Part shown: one piece after another, positions 20,247 through 30,442 of the stretch
How the letters are laid out: each line of letters begins with the position of its first letter
Position numbering within the stretch: the first letter of the stretch is position 1
Assembly (NCBI GenBank): GCA_900314495.1
Contig: OMVJ01000029.1
Coordinates: 1 to 60,510 of the forward strand
Reading direction: 5' to 3'
DNA length: 60,510 bases
From: an uncultured Olsenella sp.
GTDB lineage: Bacteria > Actinomycetota > Coriobacteriia > Coriobacteriales > Atopobiaceae
Program-made: the position numbers and the translations under genes
Notes under the pieces: model-generated
Seen by the model: the letters and a program-made list of their open reading frames with translations, nothing else
Databases searched by the model: none
Told to the model about the DNA's origin: nothing

Positions 20247-20269
20247 GCTTCCAAGCTGGCCCCTAGTAC

Positions 20270-20384
20270 GCTACCCCACAACCGACGGCGTTCGGTTGTG
20301 GGGTAGCTTTGTCTTGCGATAAAAGCGCTGGTAAGCGCCTGTGCGCCTCCTTACCCCACAAGCGGAGCCTTCCGCTTGTGGGGT
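20270..20384. repeat. Paired-hairpin element (family B)
   Basis: Hairpin 20270-20307 (16-bp arms GCTACCCCACAACCGA, 6-base loop) and hairpin 20353-20384 (ACCCCACAAGCGGA arms, loop GCCT). Sits between the ABM gene and the GDPD gene. Confidence 0.85.
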
Positions 20385-23436: not shown

Positions 23437-23467
23437 CCACAGGGACTGGGCCCCAGACTGACTAAGC

Positions 23468-23565
23468 GCTACCCCACAACCGTCGGCGTTCGGTTGTGGG
23501 GTAGCATTCTTTTCTGATAAGACCGCAGGTCGCAGGCCATGCGGAGCTTTACCCCACAAGCGAAG
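23468..23565. repeat. 98-bp direct repeat, left copy (family-B element)
   Basis: Identical over 98 bases to 24370-24467. Contains the hairpin GCTACCCCACAACCG.../...CGGTTGTGGGGTAGC (23468-23505) and the left half of a second hairpin (TACCCCACAAGCGAAG), after which the two copies diverge. Confidence 0.92.
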
Positions 23566-24324: not shown

Positions 24325-24369
24325 AAGGGGCCGGCGGCAAACGATTCGAGTCTGGACCGACTTGCGGCC

Positions 24370-24467
24370 GCTACCCCACAACCGTCGGCGTTCGGTTGTG
24401 GGGTAGCATTCTTTTCTGATAAGACCGCAGGTCGCAGGCCATGCGGAGCTTTACCCCACAAGCGAAG
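24370..24467. repeat. 98-bp direct repeat, right copy (family-B element)
   Basis: Exact copy of 23468-23565, offset 902 bp. The second hairpin continues differently here (ACGCCATGGTGGGGT), giving a degenerate closing arm. Confidence 0.92.
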
Positions 24468-24520: not shown

Positions 24521-25468
24521 TTACAGCGGCCGGTTGATCGGCCCGCCGTCCAGCGCAAGCCAGGTCTGCGCAAGCTCAATCCAGCGCGCGGCCGCCGCGT
24601 TAACGTGGCGCGCCTCGGAAGAAGTCGTCTCGTCAGCCAGAGAAATGCCGTGCGGCCCGTTCTGGAACAGGTGAAACTCGCACTCCACGCCCGCGCGCAT
24701 GAGCGCCGTCACGAAGTCCGCCGTCTCGTACGCGCGGAGTGTGTCATCAGCAGCCGTCTGCCACACAAAGGTGCGCGGCATGTCTGGCCGAACGTGTTTG
24801 CGCAGGTCAAGGGCGTCGTAGTCGGCCTCGCTAGGGTCAGCCTTGCCAAAGACGGCAAGCGTCTGCACCTCCGCCAGCTGCGCCAGGCTCACGCTGTTCG
24901 GGCCCGGCTCACCCGCCGCGGCTTCTGCGGCTGCCAGCGTATCTTGCACCAAGGTTGCCGTCACCATGGGGTAGCACAGCACAACGCCGCGCGGCTTGAC
25001 CTCGCTGGCAGCAAAGTTGCCGCGCGCGAGCAGGTCTGCGTCATCCCAATGCTCCGCCAGCGACCCAACCACATGCCCGCCGGCCGAGAAGCCCAGCGCG
25101 TAAATGCGCGCGGCGTCGATGTCCCACTCCTCCGCGTGCCTACGCACGTACGCCATGGCCTGCATCAGCGAGAAAAGCTGCTCTGGGTAGTGCGATGCGG
25201 GGTCTACCTGCGGCAACTCGCCCGGCGCGGATGGCGCGCTCGTCACGTACACGGGGTAGCGCAAAATGAAGGCGTCGTAGCCCATGCCCAGGAAGCGCGC
25301 GGCTACGGGCTCCGCCTCGCGATGCGCCAGCTTCAGATAGGCACCACCCGGGCATATGACCATTGCCGGCCGCGTCTTGGTCGCGCGCGTGCTGATCTGG
25401 TTGTCCAGCACGAAGCACTCCAGCGTTGCGGTGCCGGATTCGTTGAGACGAACTATGTCATGAATCAT
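24521..25468 (-). CDS. Alpha/beta hydrolase, acetyl-esterase-like
   Basis: 315 residues from ATG 25468 (AAGGAG site). Alpha/beta hydrolase of the BD-FAE/acetylxylan-esterase-like group: oxyanion region ICPGGAYLKLAHREAEPVA, nucleophile elbow GFSAGGHV, then an acidic residue in the AADDTLRAYE loop and the catalytic His in NGPHGISLAD. No signal peptide, so cytoplasmic. Probably removes acetyl groups from imported sugars, consistent with the carbohydrate genes around it. Convergent with the PIN gene. Confidence 0.87.
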   Translation of the reverse strand: MIHDIVRLNESGTATLECFVLDNQISTRATKTRPAMVICPGGAYLKLAHREAEPVAARFLGMGYDAFILRYPVYVTSAPSAPGELPQVDPASHYPEQLFSLMQAMAYVRRHAEEWDIDAARIYALGFSAGGHVVGSLAEHWDDADLLARGNFAASEVKPRGVVLCYPMVTATLVQDTLAAAEAAAGEPGPNSVSLAQLAEVQTLAVFGKADPSEADYDALDLRKHVRPDMPRTFVWQTAADDTLRAYETADFVTALMRAGVECEFHLFQNGPHGISLADETTSSEARHVNAAAARWIELAQTWLALDGGPINRPL

Positions 25469-25546
25469 GTTGAAGCTCCTTTTGTGGACTGGCGGAAGGA
25501 TGAGCACCGTCCCCCTCAGTTCGCGACCGGCGAGTTATCCGACGGG

Positions 25547-26434
25547 TTATTCAAATGAGACAAAAGGTGCGTCCCCCTGTCTCATGGGGCTGCTCTGGCG
25601 GTAGGCGCGCGGGCTCTGGCCCACCATCTTAGTGAACCGGTATGAGAAGTTGCTCTCGCTGGAAAAGCCCACTTCGCGCGCAATCTGCGCCACGGGCTCA
25701 TCCGTCTCGGCCAAGAGCTCGCGTGCCTTCGTTATGCGGTAGCGCAGCAGGTAGTTGTAAGGCGACGTGCCCATCTGCCTCTTGAACAGCCGCATGAGGT
25801 AGGAGCTGCTCACATTGGCGGCCCCGGCCAGGTCGTCCACGGTGATGTCCTCGGCATAGCGCTCCTCCACCACGCGCATGGCGCGCTCCACGGGCTCTGC
25901 TTCTGCACCTTGCAGCGCACTTTCCGCAAGCTCCAGCGCCATGGCAGAGAGCAGCTCGTGAACTGCAAGACCGGTGCGAAGCGTTGATGGCACGCTTTCG
26001 CGTTGCACGTTGCTCTCAATTTCCTGGAAGCACTTTCGCGCAAAACTCTCATGCAGCTGCACGGGAGCCAACGTTGGCAGGCCCATCAGCTGCCCAATTG
26101 CCGCAACCCCCGCGCCATCCACGTGCGCCCACAGGTGGTCCCAGCGCGCAGAATCCAGCGCCGTGCCATAGCTCTGCGGCGACCGGCAGTCCATGAGCAG
26201 GGCCTGCCCCTTCTCCAACCGCACCTCCTGCCCGCCCTGCCGCACCAAGCCCGCGCCGTGCAGCGTGTAGAACACGATGAACGAGTTCTTGTTGGACCTA
26301 GCTGTTGTGAATCCGCGCAGCGCATAAAAGCAGCCAACTTCGGTGCAGTAGTAAGGCTGCACCAGCTCCTGTGGGCTGGGCGTTGACCGCAGCCAGGTGC
26401 TGTTTTTCTCCACGTCCAAATTGTATTGGAGCAC
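25547..26434 (-). CDS. AraC-family regulator of the rhamnose operon, repeat-encoded tail
   Basis: 295 residues from GTG 26434 (GGGGGTGAG site). N-terminal cupin-like sugar-sensing domain (LHGAGLVRQGGQEVRLEKG) and C-terminal double HTH (DLAGAANVSSSYLMRLFKRQ and IAREVGFSSESNFSYRFTKM). Divergent from rhaB, so a RhaS-like activator is likely. The last dozen residues, MRQGDAPFVSFE, are translated from the 27-bp repeat inserted at the 3' end; the natural end was probably near YRQSSP. Candidate binding sites GGTGCAA lie at 26478, 26527 and 26569. Confidence 0.9.
   Translation of the reverse strand: MLQYNLDVEKNSTWLRSTPSPQELVQPYYCTEVGCFYALRGFTTARSNKNSFIVFYTLHGAGLVRQGGQEVRLEKGQALLMDCRSPQSYGTALDSARWDHLWAHVDGAGVAAIGQLMGLPTLAPVQLHESFARKCFQEIESNVQRESVPSTLRTGLAVHELLSAMALELAESALQGAEAEPVERAMRVVEERYAEDITVDDLAGAANVSSSYLMRLFKRQMGTSPYNYLLRYRITKARELLAETDEPVAQIAREVGFSSESNFSYRFTKMVGQSPRAYRQSSPMRQGDAPFVSFE
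25557..25583. repeat. 27-bp repeat unit inside the AraC 3' end
   Basis: GAGACAAAAGGTGCG...CTGTCTC; read in frame by the AraC gene on the opposite strand. Confidence 0.85.
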
Positions 26435-26609: not shown

Positions 26610-28043
26610 ATGAGCGCACGGCATTTGGCAATTGACATCGGGGCGTCCAGCGGCCGCCACATTGTGGGCGAGGTCGTGGACGGCAAGATGCAGCTGACCG
26701 AGGTCTACCGGTTTGAGAACAAACTGGTGCAAAAGAACGGTCACCTCTGCTGGGACATCGACGCCCTTTTCCAGAACGTGCTGGCAGGCCTGGCTGCCGC
26801 ACGCGAGCAGGGTCTGACGCCGGACACCATCGGCATCGACACCTGGGCCGTGGACTTCGTCCTTCTGGACGCGGACGGCAACCGCCTGGGCGACGCCGTG
26901 GGCTACCGCGACTCCCGCACCGACGGCGTCCGCGAGGAGCTGGAGCGCAACCGCGTGCTCAGCTTTGCCGAGCAGTACGCGCGCACCGGCATCCAATACC
27001 AGAAGTTCAACACCGCCTACCAGCTGTACGCCCTGAAGCGAGAGCACCCGGAGCAGCTTGCGGCCGCGGACAAGTTCCTCATGATCCCGGACTACCTCAA
27101 CTACCTGCTCACGGGCGTCGCCGCCAACGAGTACACCAACGCCAGCACCACGGCGCTGGTGAACGCCGAGTCCCTGACCTGGGACAACGAGCTCATCTCT
27201 CGCCTTGGTCTGCCGCGCCGCATCTTCCAGACCATGCGCATGCCCGGCAGCGCGCTCGGCAAGTTTTCTGCGAGCGTCGCGGAGCAGGTGGGCTACAGCG
27301 CAACCGTCATCCTGCCCGCCACGCACGACACCGGCTCCGCTTGGCTGGCCGTGCCCGCCCGCGACGACCAGGCCGTCTACCTCAGCTCCGGCACCTGGAG
27401 CCTGGTTGGCACGGAGAACCTGGCCGCCATCACCACGCCGGCTTCCGCCGCGGCCAACTTCACCAACGAGGGTGGCTACGACCGCCGCTTCCGCTACCTC
27501 AAGAACATCATGGGCCTGTGGATGATCCAGAACGTCCGCCGCGAGCTGAGCGAACGCTACGGCGAGGCCCCCAGCTGGGGCAAGCTGGTGGAGGAGGCCG
27601 AGGCCGCGCGCGCCGCGGGCTTCGCCGCCCAGGTGGACGTGGATGACCCCCAGTTCCTGGCGCCGGAGTCCATGGTGGAGCAGATTCGCTCCTGCTGCGC
27701 CCAGACGGGCCAGCCCGTGCCGCAGACCGACGGCCAGGTCGCCCTGGTGGTGTACGACTCGCTGGCGGCAGACTACGCGCGCGCCGTGCGCGACCTGGAG
27801 GCCCTGACCGGCAAGCTATACACCAGCATCAACATCGTTGGCGGCGGCTCCAACAACCAGTACCTCAACCAGGCAACCGCCAACGCCTGCGGCCTGCCCG
27901 TCTTTGCCGGTCCCACCGAGGGCACGGCCCTGGGCAACCTCATGGTGCAGTTCATTCAGGCAGGAGAGTACGCGGACCTGGCAGCCGCGCGCGCAGCAAT
28001 CAAGCAGAGCTTCGAAATCAAGGAGGTCCTTCCCTCATGCTAG
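26610..28043 (+). CDS. rhaB: Rhamnulokinase
   Basis: 477 residues from ATG 26610 (GAGGGGGAGCA site). FGGY carbohydrate kinase: N-terminal phosphate loop LAIDIGASSGRH, the conserved GIDTWAVDFVLLD block, YRDSRTDG, and C-terminal SSGTWSLVG and NIVGGGSNNQYLNQ. The W of GIDTWAVDF is typical of rhamnulokinase. Phosphorylates L-rhamnulose to L-rhamnulose-1-phosphate. First gene of a three-gene operon; it overlaps the isomerase by 7 bp. Confidence 0.93.
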   Translation: MSARHLAIDIGASSGRHIVGEVVDGKMQLTEVYRFENKLVQKNGHLCWDIDALFQNVLAGLAAAREQGLTPDTIGIDTWAVDFVLLDADGNRLGDAVGYRDSRTDGVREELERNRVLSFAEQYARTGIQYQKFNTAYQLYALKREHPEQLAAADKFLMIPDYLNYLLTGVAANEYTNASTTALVNAESLTWDNELISRLGLPRRIFQTMRMPGSALGKFSASVAEQVGYSATVILPATHDTGSAWLAVPARDDQAVYLSSGTWSLVGTENLAAITTPASAAANFTNEGGYDRRFRYLKNIMGLWMIQNVRRELSERYGEAPSWGKLVEEAEAARAAGFAAQVDVDDPQFLAPESMVEQIRSCCAQTGQPVPQTDGQVALVVYDSLAADYARAVRDLEALTGKLYTSINIVGGGSNNQYLNQATANACGLPVFAGPTEGTALGNLMVQFIQAGEYADLAAARAAIKQSFEIKEVLPSC

Positions 28044-29455
28044 TAGAGACCAAGGCCAAGGTCGGCGTCTTCTCCATTGCGCTCGGCGCCTACCTTCCAC
28101 AGTTCCCCCAGCTCGTCCCCGAATTCGAGTCCCAATACGCAGACTTCAAGGCATCCCTGCCCACCACCGTGGAGGTCGTTGATGGCGGCCTCGTGACCAC
28201 CAAGGAGGCCGCCGCTGCAGCTGGCGACAAGTTCCGTGCAGCCGACGTGGACCTCGTTTTCATGCAGCTGCTTACCTATGCAACCAGCTACAACATGCTG
28301 CCAGCCATTCGTGACCTCAATGTTCCCGTGGTGCTGGTTAACCTGCAGAAGGTCCGCTGCCTGGACTTTGCCACCGCCGGCACGGCCGAGTGGCTGGGCA
28401 TTGGCTACGCGGGCGGCGCCGTGGGCGAGATGGTGGCCGACCTCAACCGCGCCGGCAAGCGCCACGCCGTCATCACCGGCGTGCAGGGCGACGACCCCGA
28501 GGTCAAGGCCCAGATAGAGGACTGGTGCCGCGCCGCCCAGGTCCGCCGTCGCTTCCGTAACACCAACCTGGCGCAGATCGGCCGCCCCTACCCCGGCATG
28601 ATGGACCTCTACATCGACGAGACCAATCTCTACAACCGCATGGGCGTCTACACCAAGCAGTTTGACTGGGAGAAGATGTGGGCCATCGCGGACGACGTCA
28701 CCGACGAGGCCGCCATTGCCGCCGAGGTTGCGCAGATTCACGACACCTTTGATGTGCTGGGCGAGTACGACGAGAAGGACATCCACGAGATGGCCCGCTA
28801 CGTCCTGGCCTTTGAGCAGTGGGTGCGCGACGAGAACCTGGGCTTCGTGGCCAGCCACTACGACGGCTTTGCCCAGGGCAAGGCGGGCGTGCTGGACAGC
28901 ATGCTGATCCCGGCCTTCTCCATGCTCATCAAGCAGGGCGTTGCCTGCGCCGTCGAGGGTGACATCAAGGTCGCCCTGGGTATGAGCATCATGAAGACCA
29001 TCTCCGGCGCCTGCCAGCTCTCCGAGTTCTACACCTTCGACTTTAACGACGACGTGGTGCTCATTGGCCACTCCGGCTCCGGTGACGCGGACTTCTCCAC
29101 CGCGCGCAAGGCGAGCATGGAGATCGTGCCCGTGTTCCACGGCAAGGCGGGCGGCGGCTTCCTCACGCGCTTCTACCCCAAGCCTGGCCCCGTCACCTAC
29201 CTGGGCATCACCCAGGACGCGGACGGCCACTTCAAGTTCGTGGCCAGCGAGGGCGTCATTGAGGACGGCCCCACGCTGGGCAACGGCGACACCACCTTCC
29301 GCACGCGCTTCTCCATTGGCGCGCGCGAGTGGAACAACCGCTGGTGCGAGGCTGGCCCCACCCACCATTACGCCGCAGCTCAGGGCAGGTATATCGACAC
29401 GATTCTTAAGGTCGCGAAGATTCTGGACGTGCCCGTGGAGGTCATCTGCAGGTAG
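28037..29455 (+). CDS. L-fucose/L-arabinose isomerase-fold protein, probable rhamnose isomerase
   Basis: 472 residues, AAGGAGG site. N-terminal Rossmann-like domains begin KVGVFSIALGAYLPQFPQL, with SYNMLPAIRDLNVPVVLVNLQ; the C-terminal half has a beta-barrel segment with VLIGHSGSGDADFS and PVFHGKAGGGF. This is the FucI/AraA fold rather than the RhaA (xylose-isomerase-like) fold. Its place between rhaB and rhaD implies that it performs the missing first step, L-rhamnose to L-rhamnulose. This is a non-orthologous replacement by inference; it could also act on a related 6-deoxyhexose. Confidence 0.82.
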   Translation: MLVETKAKVGVFSIALGAYLPQFPQLVPEFESQYADFKASLPTTVEVVDGGLVTTKEAAAAAGDKFRAADVDLVFMQLLTYATSYNMLPAIRDLNVPVVLVNLQKVRCLDFATAGTAEWLGIGYAGGAVGEMVADLNRAGKRHAVITGVQGDDPEVKAQIEDWCRAAQVRRRFRNTNLAQIGRPYPGMMDLYIDETNLYNRMGVYTKQFDWEKMWAIADDVTDEAAIAAEVAQIHDTFDVLGEYDEKDIHEMARYVLAFEQWVRDENLGFVASHYDGFAQGKAGVLDSMLIPAFSMLIKQGVACAVEGDIKVALGMSIMKTISGACQLSEFYTFDFNDDVVLIGHSGSGDADFSTARKASMEIVPVFHGKAGGGFLTRFYPKPGPVTYLGITQDADGHFKFVASEGVIEDGPTLGNGDTTFRTRFSIGAREWNNRWCEAGPTHHYAAAQGRYIDTILKVAKILDVPVEVICR

Positions 29456-29614
29456 GTGCAAGCGGGCGGCAAGCTCCCAGCAAGCTGGCGGCAAGAAGTG
29501 CGCCACGGCAGTTACGTGCAAGCAGCCGGAAAAGACCGGCAAGAAATAGGCAAGCGATTGGCAAGTTTCAAAGGTTGGCCCCGCGGAAGGGGCCGCAAGA
29601 GAGAGGCAAGAAAG

Positions 29615-30442
29615 ATGGCAGTTGAGGATCTTGAGTTTGTTAAGGGCTTCTGCAGGATGTGCGATGACGGCTGGCTGCAGGGTTGGCACGAGCGCAACGG
29701 CGGCAACCTGACCTATCTGCTGGATGACACGGAGGTTGCAGCTGCCAAGCCGGAATTTGGCGAGCCCCGCGAGTGGGTCAACATGGGCGTAACTGACACC
29801 ACGCTGGCCGGCCGCTATTTCCTCTCCACCGGCTCCGGCAAATATATGCGCAACGTTGCCGGCGACCCCGCCCACAACATCGGCATCGTGGAGATCAACG
29901 CCGAAGGCAGCGCCTACCGCATTGTTTGGGGCCTGCTCGAGGGCGCCAAGCCCACCAGCGAGTTCCCCAGCCACTACATGAACCACTGCGTGCGCTTTTC
30001 CGCCGACCCCACCAACCGCGTGATTTACCACTCTCACACCCCGGGCGTCATTGAGATGAGCTTCATTGTGCCGCTTGAGGACCGCGCCTTCAGCCGCATC
30101 CTGTGGCAGATGATGACCGAGTGCGTGGTCGTGTTCCCGGCCGGCGTGGGCGTGGTGCCTTGGATGGTCCCCGGCGGCGCGGACATTGCCAAGGCCACCA
30201 GCGACCTCATGAAGAAGTACACCGCGGCGGTTTGGGCGCACCACGGTTTGTTCGTGAGCGGCCCCGACTTTGATACCGCATTTGGCCTCGCTCACACCAT
30301 CGAGAAGGCCGCCGAGCTCTACATTGCGGCGCGCGCGGCAAACGGCGGCTCCGACAAGTTCCTGAACGTCATTTCCGACCAGGGCCTGAAGGACACCTGC
30401 CGCGACTTCGGCATTCAGATCAACGAGGACTTCGTGGACTAG
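29615..30442 (+). CDS. rhaD: Rhamnulose-1-phosphate aldolase
   Basis: 275 residues from ATG 29615 (GAGAGG site). Class II aldolase/adducin fold, with the Zn-binding HSHTPG motif, then WAHHGLF giving the third His and the general-base Glu in FCRMCDDGW...HERNGGNLTY. Splits rhamnulose-1-phosphate to dihydroxyacetone phosphate and L-lactaldehyde. The 160-bp spacer after the isomerase carries no gene. Terminated by the hairpin at 30493. Confidence 0.93.
   Translation: MAVEDLEFVKGFCRMCDDGWLQGWHERNGGNLTYLLDDTEVAAAKPEFGEPREWVNMGVTDTTLAGRYFLSTGSGKYMRNVAGDPAHNIGIVEINAEGSAYRIVWGLLEGAKPTSEFPSHYMNHCVRFSADPTNRVIYHSHTPGVIEMSFIVPLEDRAFSRILWQMMTECVVVFPAGVGVVPWMVPGGADIAKATSDLMKKYTAAVWAHHGLFVSGPDFDTAFGLAHTIEKAAELYIAARAANGGSDKFLNVISDQGLKDTCRDFGIQINEDFVD

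Follow-up and report, generated by a model that had tools for sequence, protein, structure and literature searches.

The L-rhamnose isomerase RhaA (PF06134) has a xylose-isomerase-like barrel. A title in the reference list of PMC3870299 describes it as related to xylose isomerase, and in the available portion of that study (Rodionova et al. 2013) two alternative isomerases, RhaA and RhaI (TIGR02635), account for the genomes studied. RhaI is the earlier example of a second and divergent isomerase for rhamnose. The accessible text of Ravcheev and Thiele 2017 (PMC5583593) gives fucI no homologues among rhamnose-catabolizing enzymes. A rhamnose isomerase with the fold of AraA (L-arabinose isomerase) and FucI (L-fucose isomerase) was not found described in the literature searched, which covered few subscription papers and no preprints. 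The gene considered here, termed X, is flanked by rhaB and rhaD on a 60,510-nucleotide stretch of DNA from an uncultured Olsenella sp. (contig OMVJ01000029.1 of assembly GCA_900314495.1), the whole of which is referred to as the window. Its product is very probably a third, non-homologous L-rhamnose isomerase, which has the AraA/FucI fold and replaces RhaA.

Operon, Fold, and Metal Site

The genes rhaB (26610-28043), X (28037-29455), and rhaD (29615-30442) form one compact operon on the + strand, with ATG start codons at 26610 for rhaB and 29615 for rhaD and a 7-bp overlap between the end of rhaB and the start of X. The rhaB product is a rhamnulokinase of the FGGY family, containing FGGY_N and FGGY_C, that scores 548.5 bits with TIGR02627 (cut-off 528). 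The rhaD product, a rhamnulose-1-phosphate aldolase with an Aldolase_II domain, scores 291 bits with NF002963 (cut-off 170) and falls below the stricter cut-off of TIGR02624 (304 vs. 401 bits).

The 472-residue X protein has no match at E ≤ 0.001 to the RhaA model PF06134, to the RhaI model TIGR02635, or to the N-terminal FucI models of Pfam. Its matches to other models are weak and comprise, in Pfam, Arabinose_Iso_C (25.7 bits, cut-off 25) and Fucose_iso_C (25.0, cut-off 29.3) and, in NCBIfam, SftI (57.8 bits over residues 52-469, cut-off 700) and AraA (51.4, cut-off 622). SftI (NF048012) is the top-scoring named NCBIfam model, but X lies far below its cut-off and is partnered by rhaB and rhaD. 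The possibility that X is a true AraA, FucI, or SftI was rejected on its failure to reach the curated family cut-offs.

The structure of X was predicted with ColabFold from a 13-row alignment, with a predicted local distance difference test (pLDDT) score of 76 and a predicted template modeling (pTM) score of 0.82. The model aligns over the whole chain with L-arabinose isomerases (Z 31-33, 448-457 residues, 15-17% identity), the full-length likeness to AraA in PDB entries 2ajt, 4f2d, 4r1q, and 7chl being at Z 32-33, and it aligns with L-fucose and D-arabinose isomerases (FucI entries 1fui and 4c20 included) at Z 26-27 over about 440 residues, after which the scores drop to Z 8; Foldseek gave 2.6e-28 to structures of the same fold. 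Membership of X in the AraA/FucI isomerase fold superfamily is thus confirmed at the level of a predicted structure, and the original prediction that the gene between rhaB and rhaD has this fold and is not rhaA is borne out. X differs from AraA in having rhaB and rhaD, not araB and araD, as partners. FucI has a 6-deoxyhexose as its substrate and functions in an analogous pathway, but is only 14-16% identical to X, which is about 120 residues shorter. X resembles RhaA in occupying the same site by rhaB and rhaD and in the reaction proposed for it, but the fold is a different one.

Residues Glu307, Glu330, His345, and His444 of X align with Glu306, Glu333, His350, and His450 of AraA, the metal ligands of that enzyme, and none of the four varies among 98 X sequences compared. 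Glu306, Glu333, and histidines of AraA are named in a legend in the available part of PMC12842569.

Mutual Exclusion and Exchange of X and RhaA

When 247 genomes of the window's order, Coriobacteriales, were searched with X, RhaA, RhaB, and RhaD, a strong RhaB match (E < 1e-80) was present in 45. Full-length X, at an identity of at least 71%, is carried by 18 of these and RhaA by 24; no genome carries the two together, and three lack both; the absence of overlap has P = 7.8e-10 under independence with phylogeny ignored. An 83-residue, 48% partial match to X in one RhaA genome, G194, was left out of the X count. RhaA is also present in a 25th genome, G239, where RhaB gave no strong match. Among the three with neither isomerase (G031, G046, and G169), two have a rhaB that is only 37-39% identical to that of the window and may be another FGGY kinase. 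The genome from which the window derives (65 contigs totaling 2.80 Mb, with 99% completeness) was searched for a RhaA gene elsewhere, which the original prediction had regarded as counting against it; none was found, and a hidden RhaA was rejected.

Operons were compared in 44 genomes together with the RhaA locus of G239 and the window. The isomerase gene adjoins rhaB or rhaD in 42 genomes of the order. Of the 18 X genes, 11 (that of the window among them) are flanked by rhaB and rhaD, and the other seven follow rhaD; RhaA is directly after rhaB and before rhaD in 23 of 24, the 24th operon being cut by a contig end. In a tree built from 42 RhaB proteins, which includes a partial, long-branched row from G018, the isomerase type switches seven times (bootstrap range 6-7), and in one built from 40 RhaD proteins six times, with at least five switches forced by starred branches in each tree. 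One starred branch groups the RhaD of the window with that of the RhaA genome G194. Both types are found within a single genus in g7 (X in G165, RhaA in G194 and G072) and again in g62 (X in G142, RhaA in G231). Because the two types exchange repeatedly beside rhaB and rhaD, even within genera, X and RhaA are interchangeable in the same operon, and this interchangeability, as read from gene order and trees, is the strongest evidence that they share a reaction.

In the rha operon of G018 (L155, G018:C76:64700-70000), which has a decayed appearance, rhaB is split over two frames and rhaD has an internal TGA; X is intact.

Distribution beyond the Order

At least 579 relatives were confirmed when genome_contigs was scanned, and the best 80 loci, which come from Coriobacteriia, Lachnospiraceae (including Blautia), Oscillospiraceae, and Solobacterium, were analyzed with neighboring genes called by tblastn and by conservation-ranked open reading frames. 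In these 80 loci rhaB is near X in 57 and rhaD in 49, and RhaA is near X in none. Fifty of the 80 genomes were searched whole; RhaA was detected in none of these 50 X-bearing genomes from outside the order, and RhaB was present at E ≤ 1e-40 in 49 of them.

The RhaI model TIGR02635 was run on 49 genomes, comprising that of the window, the remaining 17 genomes of the order with X, the three with neither isomerase, and 28 of the 50 from outside, and none scored over its cut-off. Sub-threshold matches in six of the 49 reached at best 65.8 bits against a cut-off of 531, and RhaI was rejected as a hidden isomerase; the window's genome scored 34 vs. 531 bits, a value that refers to TIGR02635 and not to the rhizobial-type RhaI model.

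An independent sample of 200 genomes from the family of the Blautia genome G286 contained X (81% identity or more) in 18, RhaA in 63, and strong RhaB in 94, with RhaB in all 18 X genomes; three genomes having only paralogues of 33-41% identity (G347, G394, and G442) were left out of the X count. Co-occurrence of X and RhaA among the RhaB genomes of this sample was depleted (two vs. 11.9 expected, P 1.3e-7), and the depletion is weaker when reckoned against all 200 genomes (two vs. 5.7 expected, P 0.039).

Rhamnose as Probable Substrate and Proposed Pathway

Genes for lactaldehyde reductase (11 loci), rhamnose mutarotase (5), GH78 (5), and a sugar ATP-binding cassette (ABC) ATPase (5) also occur near X in the best 80 loci. 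Representatives of these neighbors pass curated cut-offs (628 vs. 537 bits for lactaldehyde reductase, 152 vs. 99.6 for rhamnose mutarotase), as does a GH78 domain (318 vs. 24.5 bits). A Glyco_hydro_88 family protein is encoded beside X in two loci with no nearby rhaB or rhaD (L052:1235-2311 and L076:6730-7806), and this family includes unsaturated rhamnogalacturonyl hydrolases. The rhamnose mutarotase and α-L-rhamnosidase neighbors favor rhamnose over another sugar. Blautia caecimuris is rhamnose-positive according to Table 2 in the accessible part of PMC7872077. Strain DSM 29492 of this species has rhaB-X adjacent to genes for a sugar ABC transporter (L097), and a search of the genome (G288) found neither RhaA nor RhaI.

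In the pathway proposed from the gene order, fold, conserved site, exclusion of RhaA, repeated exchange, and neighboring genes, X would bind one divalent metal through Glu307, Glu330, His345, and His444 and would convert L-rhamnose to L-rhamnulose (EC 5.3.1.14), RhaB would phosphorylate L-rhamnulose at O-1, and RhaD would split L-rhamnulose-1-phosphate into dihydroxyacetone phosphate and L-lactaldehyde. Lactaldehyde would then be reduced to 1,2-propanediol by a reductase of the FucO type, encoded at a separate site in the genome; a lactaldehyde reductase gene lies outside the window at G000:C24:106401-107537 (570 bits, cut-off 523). The original prediction had noted that no rhamnose transporter or lactaldehyde reductase is visible in the window, and this holds for the 20 window proteins scanned against Pfam, among which neither a sugar transporter nor a lactaldehyde reductase was found; the transporter was not sought genome-wide.

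Alternative Explanations

Several observations weigh against the assignment of X as a rhamnose isomerase that replaces RhaA. The substrates of AraA and FucI differ from rhamnose in configuration at C2/C3; the proposed specificity would therefore be new for the fold and would need a reshaped pocket, and the model of X has low confidence at residues 183-206. The type strain of Blautia luti is listed as rhamnose-negative in Table 2 of PMC7872077, in the part available; the B. luti that carries rhaB-X (L081) is a different strain. In 21 of the 80 loci neither rhaB nor rhaD is nearby in the sequence available. The genomes of all 21 were among those searched whole, and 20 of them have rhaB elsewhere, G294 being the one without it. 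X and RhaA occur together in two genomes of the Blautia-family sample, G311 and G448; in G448 X is directly behind a GH78 rhamnosidase, and the RhaA gene is on a separate contig together with rhaB and rhaD. Lastly, paralogues of X with 28-41% identity are found within ABC-transporter operons in RhaA-bearing genomes (L159:4658-7590, L163:7359-4360, and L164:7500-6088, with tandem pairs in L159 and L163), one of them, in L159, directly before RhaA. They retain the metal residues and are changed at other positions conserved in X, such as Gln180, Lys207, Gln208, and Gln327. Because they co-occur with RhaA, the wider family does not consist entirely of RhaA replacements and has at least one further role.

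The original prediction had left a choice between replacement of RhaA and an operon for another 6-deoxy sugar. The latter would have X act on a different 6-deoxy or manno-configured sugar (e.g. L-mannose, L-lyxose, 6-deoxy-L-talose, or L-fucose), to be processed further by RhaB and RhaD, so that the operon would not be mainly for rhamnose. This accords with the known substrates of the fold, which are L-arabinose and L-fucose/D-arabinose from PDB titles and sulfoquinovose from a model name, and with the 21 isolated loci, but it is improbable in view of the exclusion of RhaA and the repeated exchange beside rhaB and rhaD, which imply that X does the job of RhaA there, and of the rhamnose mutarotase and α-L-rhamnosidase genes beside X and the rhamnose-positive B. 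caecimuris that lacks RhaA and RhaI. Replacement is thus the part of the prediction that gained strong support, and the other sugar is disfavored by the rhamnose-specific neighbors. Rather less improbable, though still unlikely, is a broad or bifunctional enzyme that acts on rhamnose and on a second sugar, fucose or arabinose, which is compatible with X being a rhamnose isomerase. X genes distant from rhaB and rhaD do exist, as might be expected of such an enzyme, but every X of the order is within a rha operon, and no fucose gene was noticed among the window proteins scanned. In the available text of PMC5583593, moreover, FucI serves to recognize genomes with the fucose pathway. In a further source, PMC3557285, of which a portion was available, rhamnose raises expression of the isomerase-like Cphy_0584 of C. 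phytofermentans, which belongs to an operon for a rhamnose transporter, 38-fold and fucose raises it 7-fold, a response that would suit dual specificity if Cphy_0584 belonged to the family of X. The order of ABC transporter and isomerase genes at Cphy_0584 resembles that of the L159, L163, and L164 paralogues and also L101, and it is not used as evidence for X.

It is very improbable that X is not the pathway isomerase but plays a non-catalytic or accessory part (mutarotation, for example), the true isomerase being another protein. The paralogue beside RhaA in L159, where a second isomerase would be redundant, could be taken to suggest such a role, but it is opposed by the invariance of the metal-site residues, by the separate encoding of a mutarotase, RhaM, alongside X, and by the failure to find RhaA, or RhaI over its cut-off, in the X genomes tested, G311 and G448 being exceptions for RhaA. 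A rhamnose isomerase of the AraA/FucI fold, occupying the place of RhaA, remains the preferred assignment for X, which is most likely a widespread variant of an established step in the pathway.

Three loci, L045 (4772-6244), L085, and L086, encode beside or near rhaB-X a second isomerase that is FucI-like (Fucose_iso_C, 92.6 bits); it is barely similar to X, the best segment being 23% identical over 83 residues.

Implications

On a broader level, X probably represents a third family of L-rhamnose isomerases, of independent evolutionary origin, in which the AraA/FucI fold has reached manno-configured 6-deoxy-L-sugars and has displaced RhaA many times in gut Coriobacteriales, Lachnospiraceae, and Oscillospiraceae, so that annotation based on RhaA and RhaI overlooks or misinterprets how these bacteria use rhamnose, a plant sugar. 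If this is true, a basic step of sugar catabolism has a third unrelated enzyme that is common in gut and rumen bacteria, and reconstructions in which RhaA or RhaI is a requirement, or in which FucI-type proteins serve as markers of fucose use, would misjudge which organisms consume rhamnose and, likewise, which produce 1,2-propanediol or propionate. X would also be a new scaffold for rare-sugar isomerases and, because X and RhaA both occur in the same genera, would provide a clean natural experiment in non-homologous replacement.

Other Features of the Window

Divergent from rhaB, on the - strand at 25547-26434, is a gene for an AraC-family protein (HTH_18, 93 bits, and AraC_binding) that is probably the regulator of the operon; homologues occupy the same divergent site before rhaB in L032 (58%) and in L061 and L089 (38-40%). 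Beyond it on the same strand, at 24521-25507, is a gene for an α/β-hydrolase esterase (Abhydrolase_3/BD-FAE), a possible accessory enzyme that is near lp_1002 arylesterase (178 vs. 300 bits) and BD-FAE. Homologues are located upstream of rhaB in L035 (55%) and L036 (52%), with weaker ones in L048 and L055, and their presence near rhaB-X in L035 and L036 may suggest that the esterase could deacetylate rhamnose-containing oligosaccharides. A 99-bp repeat with a strong palindrome is present in three copies, at 20269-20367, 23467-23565, and 24369-24467, around DUF1295 and PIN-domain genes; two of the copies are identical and one is at 79%.

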